Assembly: GCA_016927325.1 (NCBI GenBank) | Contig: JAFGMY010000018.1 | Span: 1-41,457 of the forward strand | Reading direction: 5' to 3' | DNA length: 41,457 nucleotides | Origin: Actinomycetota bacterium | GTDB taxonomy: Bacteria; Actinomycetota; Geothermincolia; Fen-727; Anoxymicrobiaceae | The notes under the pieces: generated by a model | Told to the model about the DNA's origin: nothing | The model's input: the letters and a program-made list of their open reading frames with translations, nothing else | Database searches by the model: none | Part shown: positions 32,321 through 32,759 of the stretch, in pieces | Numbering within the stretch: the stretch's first letter is position 1 | How the letters are laid out: each line of letters starts with the position of its first letter | Program-made: the position numbers and the translations under genes

Positions 32321-32395
32321 GGGCGTTTAGCTCAGCGGGAGAGCACCTGCCTTACAAGCAGGGGGTCACTGGTTCAAATCCAGTAACGCCCACCA
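32321..32395 (+). tRNA. tRNA-Val (anticodon TAC), CCA encoded
   Basis: Full cloverleaf: GGGCGTT/AACGCCC acceptor, D arm GCTC..GAGC, anticodon stem CCTGC/GCAGG with loop CTTACAA, T arm ACTGG-TTCAAAT-CCAGT, A discriminator, CCA. Confidence 0.97.
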
Positions 32396-32396
32396 T
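32367..32396 (+). repeat. att-like direct repeat, copy 1 (within tRNA-Val 3' end)
   Basis: CACTGGTTCAAATCCAGTAACGCCCACCAT, identical to 32554-32583. Confidence 0.9.
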
Positions 32397-32454
32397 CAAC
32401 CAATCATGATATGAACCATTGACCCCAATGACGTCTAATATCAGTCACGCTTTC

Positions 32455-32474
32455 GTGGGGCTCTCCAGCCCCGC
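32455..32474 (+). repeat. Hairpin GGGGCT-CTCC-AGCCCC between the att-like repeats
   Basis: Perfect 6-bp stem, extendable to 8 with one wobble. Confidence 0.5.
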
Positions 32475-32511
32475 TCATTTGTTAAAACAATCTTTGAAAT
32501 CAAACTCCTTT

Positions 32512-32536
32512 AGTGCGGGGCTCTCAGCCCGGCACT
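32512..32536 (+). repeat. Hairpin AGTGCGGGGCT-CTC-AGCCCGGCACT between the att-like repeats
   Basis: 10 base pairs with one G-G mismatch; same core as the previous hairpin. Confidence 0.55.
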
Positions 32537-32553
32537 ATCATGGTGTTATGATC

Positions 32554-32583
32554 CACTGGTTCAAATCCAGTAACGCCCACCAT
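32554..32583 (+). repeat. att-like direct repeat, copy 2 (truncated tRNA-Val 3' end)
   Basis: 30/30 identical to 32367-32396; upstream flank is not tRNA-like. Confidence 0.9.
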
Positions 32584-32759
32584 TTAACCCCGGTGCCTGC
32601 GGTTTTGTTTTGCCGAAGACAAAATTAAACCCCTGACATCGGTCTCACTTTATGAATACGCAAACATCCCGTACTGCAAACCAGTGATTTGGTCACCAGC
32701 TCCACAAGCCACAAAACCAATGAAGCAATGCCTGTGAATCAGCTCCTTTAGTGAAACGT

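Follow-up and report, generated by a model that had tools for sequence, protein, structure and literature searches.

The rtT repeats found behind the tRNA-Tyr genes of E. coli have been known since 1978. What they are known for is an RNA and a small protein that derive from them, not mobility. To our knowledge they have been described at one tRNA only, and we know of no account of the origin of the 178-bp repeats at tyrT/rtT. At tyrV/tyrT of E. coli K-12 each 178-bp unit ends in 19 nt of tRNA-Tyr, and 57 nt past the CCA we observe an inverted T-arm (GCGGGGAAGGATGAGAAGCTTCGAC; 19/25, with a GAGAA loop) that is followed by GC palindromes and that, as far as we know, is not in the published rtT definition. 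In another group of short palindromes, the canonical REPs, the hairpin has GTRG at its foot and there is no tie to tRNA genes. Tandem clusters of REPINs are known (PMC3116915), and tRNA is nowhere mentioned in four core REP/RAYT papers (PMC6006769, PMC8266576, PMC3116915, PMC2817692); nor did we find a report of a tRNA-associated REPIN or RAYT in the open-access full-text literature.

Here we describe a segment behind a tRNA-Val gene that resembles both systems in part. The window, i.e. the whole stretch of 41,457 nucleotides that was analysed, is one entire contig (C24) of G000, a 2.47-Mb metagenome-assembled genome (MAG) of an Actinomycetota bacterium that is 82% complete. We read the segment, with a probability of roughly 0.58, as a diverged unit of a small non-autonomous palindromic mobile family, which is delimited by the T-arm of the host tRNA and would move as folded single-stranded DNA via a Y1 HUH enzyme. 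Taken by itself, the mechanism is close to an even call; that the unit belongs to a class of tRNA-anchored segments with a common layout is highly probable.

The segment behind tRNA-Val

A sequence-only reading of the window had reported an exact 30-bp duplication of the tRNA-Val 3' end, which we could confirm: CACTGGTTCAAATCCAGTAACGCCCACCAT is present in two exact copies on the same strand, at an offset of 187 bp and with an insert of 157 bp between them (Table 1). The repeat is far beyond chance: even when up to 3 mismatches are allowed the window has no further match, and dinucleotide shuffles give 0. It also holds, as that reading had stated, that the stretch 5' of copy 2 is not tRNA-like (15.1 bits with the tRNA model, E 3.1, against a cut-off of 29) and that the window contains no integrase, PF00589 being absent from the whole contig. 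A plain tandem duplication would leave a direct repeat near a tRNA, as would a decayed second tRNA copy, an outcome that the sequence-only reading had itself considered, and full-length decayed tRNA copies do exist in one relative (G001). Here, the stretch before copy 2 fails the tRNA model and an inverted T-arm and a doublet of REP-like hairpins lie between the copies, which refutes both explanations for the window and leaves them practically no weight.

Table 1. Features of the tRNA-Val locus, in positions of the window
Feature	Position	Strand	Remarks
tRNA-Val(TAC) gene, intact	32321..32395	+	anchor: own T-arm and 3' end
30-bp direct repeat, copy 1 (T-arm, acceptor 3' strand, CCA, T)	32367..32396	+	
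Linker, 11 nt, from tRNA 3' end to inverted T-arm	32397..32407	.	12-57 nt in related units
Inverted tRNA-Val T-arm, GATATGAACCATTGACCCC vs GATTTGAACCAGTGACCCC	32408..32426	-	17/20 identical
REP-like hairpin 1, GTGGGGCTCTCCAGCCCCGC	32455..32474	+	
REP-like hairpin 2, GTGCGGGGCTCTCAGCCCGGCAC	32513..32535	+	z -5.7
Terminal palindrome TATCATGGTGTTATGATC	32536..32553	.	pairing possible with ATCATGATA, left end of insert
30-bp tRNA 3'-end repeat, copy 2	32554..32583	+	right boundary of the unit
Dispersed palindromic repeat (TTTAACCCCGGTGCC...CGGTCTC)	32583..32646	+	abuts copy 2

The inverted T-arm, the two REP-like hairpins and the palindromic repeat abutting copy 2 are features beyond the sequence-only reading. 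The inverted T-arm begins 12 nt past the CCA of tRNA-Val, and its identity was equalled by 0/3000 shuffles and by 0/810 other windows of the contig; it is weaker than the arms of most units, and its gapped score was reached by 1/5,000 shuffles. The 157-bp insert folds far better than shuffled sequence, as RNA or DNA (z -5.4, -5.9), and is unique in G000 as a whole, with relatives for its parts: the hairpin doublet recurs in the same order and with similar spacing on contig C7 (locus L204), and CTCTCAG-type hairpins (GSNCTCTCAGNSC) occur at 24 sites in G000 vs 5 in the reversed control. Further copies of the dispersed palindrome (TTTAACCCCGGTG...) were seen at L002, L004, L263 and L267, with one copy (C113) lying away from tRNA genes; the same repeat family occurs beside tRNA-Arg and inside tRNA-Ala and tRNA-Glu units of G000.

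What these units have in common with REPIN/BIME and RAYT systems are paired, short, GC-rich dispersed palindromes that are non-autonomous and, in related units, have a Y1 HUH gene nearby or within. In a REPIN the two REPs stand in inverted orientation, whereas hairpins 1 and 2 of the window share one loop orientation and fail in this respect; GTGGGG-type starts (GTGG) are found at hairpin 1 and at the right ends of the type I units described below, and GTGC at hairpin 2. The likeness to rtT (Rfam RF00391, RtT) is one of layout: tandem units of 178 bp in E. coli and of 187-220 bp in the window family are closed by a tRNA 3' end, of 19 nt in the E. coli units and 30 nt in the window unit, and an inverted host T-arm is present in E. 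coli, in the window and in related units. RF00391 itself gave no match in the window region at E values up to 10, the E. coli repeats scoring 133-138 bits, and for this lack of sequence homology we call the window unit rtT-like in layout and not a member of the RtT family. Among all Rfam families only tRNA was above cut-off, in the window and in the arrays of its relatives, and neither unit nor insert had a match in phages and plasmids.

Related units at the tRNA genes of the order

The genomes compared were mostly draft MAGs. A search of relatives with this stretch of the window revealed additional tRNA 3' ends, spaced by about 208 bp, behind tRNA-Val in G011, G012 and G009, and these three genomes carry tandem arrays with units of 196-230 bp. 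From its 5' side, an array unit consists of a tRNA 3' end (25 nt), a linker of 20-35 nt and then the T-arm in inverted form, its loop changed (e.g. CGTTACTGG-GTGCA-GAACCAG). Type I units continue with the motif GGGGTCACCGCGCGCC, an interior, the motif GGCGCGTGGGGT and the GGTTCRAATCC...CCA of the next tRNA 3' end; type II units have GGGGGG hairpins and the ends GAGCGACG ahead of GGTTC; a third kind is built on a CCGGTG...CACCGG palindrome, the one abutting copy 2 in the window. The arms of the units are complementary and the centre is unpaired (AAAT vs GTGCA or GAGAA), with GAGAA found in actinobacterial units such as GGGGCGAGAAGCCCC and GGTGAGAAACTG, and the unit junctions vary, at or near GGTTC. 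The window unit is single and diverged: type I and type II end motifs are lacking, and its direct copy takes in the T-stem letters CACT. Our best reading is that of an old unit, with a REP-like doublet that either makes up the interior or has overwritten it.

The type I junction pattern was present in 9/13 genomes of the order and in 0/18 others of the class, with 0 in the reversed control, and its left motif, which was searched within the order only, adjoins tRNAs of several kinds. In the GTDB collection, tRNA-linked matches to the junction pattern are confined to this group; eight further loci outside the order (Alphaproteobacteria, Streptomyces and others) were rejected, none of them being at a tRNA gene, and viral contigs had no match to the pattern. 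The sequence-only reading had proposed comparing the tRNA-Val locus across sister genomes, and occupied and unoccupied loci are indeed both present across the order. The clearest single disrupted target is a tRNA-Val copy in G005 (C199, L046, 1-115), which has a compact type I hairpin inside its T-arm (GGTT...GGTTC). A tRNA-Arg(TCG) gene in a different family within the phylum is followed, 137 nt downstream, by part of a tRNA-Arg 3' end (22/25; G034:C21, L045, 9497-9785), and from this locus the phenomenon may extend outside the order.

In a census, 78 tRNA rows from two genomes (G000 and G002) were scored for two features, a copy of the last 25 nt of the tRNA no more than 600 nt away and an inverted T-arm no more than 250 nt away. 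Both were found at about 13/78 tRNA genes, and one of the two at several more. In G002 they were tRNAs for Asn, Gln, Lys, Thr, Arg, Pro, Ser, Leu, Val and Ala (about 10/48), in G000 for Val, Arg and Ala; besides tRNA-Val, the latter genome shows the layout at Arg-TCT, Ala-GGC and Asp-GTC, and partially at Ser, Glu and Gly. No tRNA-Val gene of other orders (n=16, one truncated at a contig end) had both features. Arrays are under-counted, because in G000 many of the tRNA 3' ends are at the same time contig ends. Four of its contigs (C2, C97, C148 and C63; L338, L265, L339 and L340) stop 0-1 nt from a tRNA CCA, and 10/40 of its tRNA 3' ends lie within 150 nt of the end of a contig, where about 0.4 would be expected; it looks as though the assembly breaks at repeats that follow tRNAs.

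The sequence-only reading took the 30-bp repeats for an att-like scar of tyrosine-recombinase integration or for the mark of a minimal integrated element. In the att-scar case, an island or satellite of small size would have entered the 3' end of the tRNA, with the repeats as its attL and attR. A partial tRNA 3' copy present as a direct repeat is indeed common to tRNA-integrated islands and to these units, and behind tRNA-Ser(TGA) of G004 (C232, L087, 144-3939) two gene-bearing segments (about 1.2 and 2.5 kb) resemble cassettes, in that a compact hairpin site together with a tRNA-Ser 3' copy closes each of them. The units differ from islands in having no integrase, a tiny palindromic content, an inverted T-arm and many tRNA species per genome. 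No dedicated integrase was found: the full-length tyrosine recombinases of G000 are only XerC/XerD-like, and the two matches each in the array-bearing G011 and G012 have a length and sequence that look XerC/XerD-like (tested for one protein of G011). Furthermore, an att scar predicts neither the inverted, tRNA-matched T-arm nor the palindromic interior, and it does not account for a genome in which more than ten tRNA species are used. Thus, the att-scar interpretation is mostly wrong and we consider it very unlikely; on present evidence, the window segment is not an integrase island. What survives of the sequence-only reading is a very small element bounded by a tRNA 3' copy and probably mobilised in trans, and what does not is a collapsed island. 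AT-rich DNA next to tRNA-Ala(GGC) of G009, at a contig end (C31, L144, 260-1330), contains a gene for a tyrosine recombinase and looks like an ordinary integrated element of distant source.

The gene-bearing segments of G004, and arrays with variable interiors, also bring integrons to mind. In that case the folded hairpin of T-arm and inverted T-arm, with its unpaired centre, would be an attC-like site, the T-arm of the tRNA would serve as attI and the units would be cassettes; quasi-palindromic, complementary arms with a conserved unpaired centre are common to both. The units lack IntI and the attC core (RYYYAAC/GTTRRRY), their boxes being tRNA T-stem sequence, and the sequence of the arms tracks the host tRNA and not an attC core. 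As the order is without IntI, save for one likely contaminant contig and one interrupted match below cut-off, an integron-like system is quite unlikely. The sole TIGR02249 match above cut-off, on a 4-kb contig of G006 (C98, L143), is a true integron integrase with an ordinary attC array; it looks proteobacterial, and the contig is likely a contamination of the G006 bin.

Interiors have moved from one tRNA gene to another, and the arms match the tRNA of each site

Inverted T-arms resemble the tRNA beside which they stand: the diagonal sum of the comparison was 550 vs 365 ± 13, reached in 0/10,000 permutations, where it is the effect size that counts and not the exact probability, since the permutation mixes related and unrelated tRNAs. 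The interiors behave differently from the arms. Those at tRNA-Val and tRNA-Ser(TGA) of G009 are 97.3% identical over 147 bp and those at tRNA-Thr and tRNA-Ser(CGA) of G002 92% identical, with tRNA 3' ends that are only 59-68% alike within these pairs. Near-identical interiors flanked by host-matching T-arms show that the interior moves and that the arms are re-matched to the host tRNA.

Such re-matching could also arise with no transposase at all, if replication switched template at the T-arm hairpin, with GGTTCRAATCC as microhomology, to give inverted and direct copies that unequal recombination then expanded into arrays. Arms re-matched to the local tRNA, variable junctions and exact tandem repeats are all in line with this. 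Active dispersal fits better with the same interior and end motifs at several tRNAs, and also with a transposase gene inside one unit, and we therefore regard template switching as unlikely.

Transposase genes, mechanism and meaning

This gene, which is RAYT-like, lies at tRNA-Ser of G001 (L160, 1684-2547). The unit around it (1481-2625) has the same termini, with the left motif (1501) on one side of the gene and, on the other, a right end that includes a tRNA-Ser 3' copy (2588-2625). The gene encodes a protein of 287 aa, with HYHLLVD and with the Y in EYRMMNAVRY, which matches Pfam Y1_Tnp above cut-off and NCBIfam REP_Tyr_transpos at 6.7e-13, under the curated cut-off. Similar genes lie beside tRNA-Ala units in G001 and G002, and in G002 a sister gene is found directly behind tRNA-Ser, with a 25/25 copy. 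The RAYTs of tRNA sites, to which a gene at L082 (3239-4180) also belongs, form one clade of 8 (clade A, support 100/100), which is divergent from the RAYTs of REPIN systems and had no sequence match among solved structures; 0 of the 17 other RAYTs of the order have a tRNA in their locus. A search of 397 genomes of the phylum gave close relatives of the clade in G001 and G002 only. With the clade in two genomes and the units in at least nine, we infer its mobilising role, and consider it the most likely mobiliser, not a proven one; as units occur in more genomes than the clade does, the gene may be cargo instead. Some of the genomes are incomplete MAGs; in G000 (82% complete) no member of the clade was found, and the RAYT that this genome has on C4 falls outside the clade, with no REP-like hairpin found beside it. 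Since no matching transposase gene was found in G000, the window copy is probably immobile now.

A unit has the inverted T-arm on its left, a hairpin-rich interior and the direct tRNA 3' end on its right, a plan that leaves the tRNA intact. This much we observe, together with its recurrence at many tRNAs, the tandem arrays and the movement of interiors; what our preferred reading of a mobile family delimited by the T-arm adds to it is inferred. The T-arm is a natural hairpin with a near-universal GTTCRA loop, and it would be the site that is recognised and at which exchange takes place. The element would move as folded single-stranded DNA, the candidate enzyme being a Y1 HUH transposase of the RAYT/TnpA-REP-like kind, and the arms would probably take their new sequence from the local tRNA, through pairing or copying along the long quasi-palindrome. 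The Y1 transposases known to us neither duplicate nor invert their target, and re-matching of the arms therefore needs an extra step; no excision, circle or recent insertion was seen. A more far-reaching version, which we put forward tentatively and hold to be possible but rather doubtful, is that the terminal repeats are rewritten at each insertion to the T-arm of the host, that movement as folded single-stranded DNA is due to the dedicated RAYT clade, and that the rtT repeats of E. coli are relics of the same kind of element. If this were true, one interior could colonise any tRNA gene without destroying the gene.

We believe that these observations turn rtT from a one-locus oddity into a recurrent class with a common anatomy and offer a testable origin for rtT-like repeats, namely palindromic elements for which the T-arm of a tRNA serves as the site. 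They also call for caution, in that a tRNA 3' copy by itself is not proof of an integrase island. For the elements themselves, keeping the interior and changing the ends with each tRNA would be an unusual route to many safe insertion sites.
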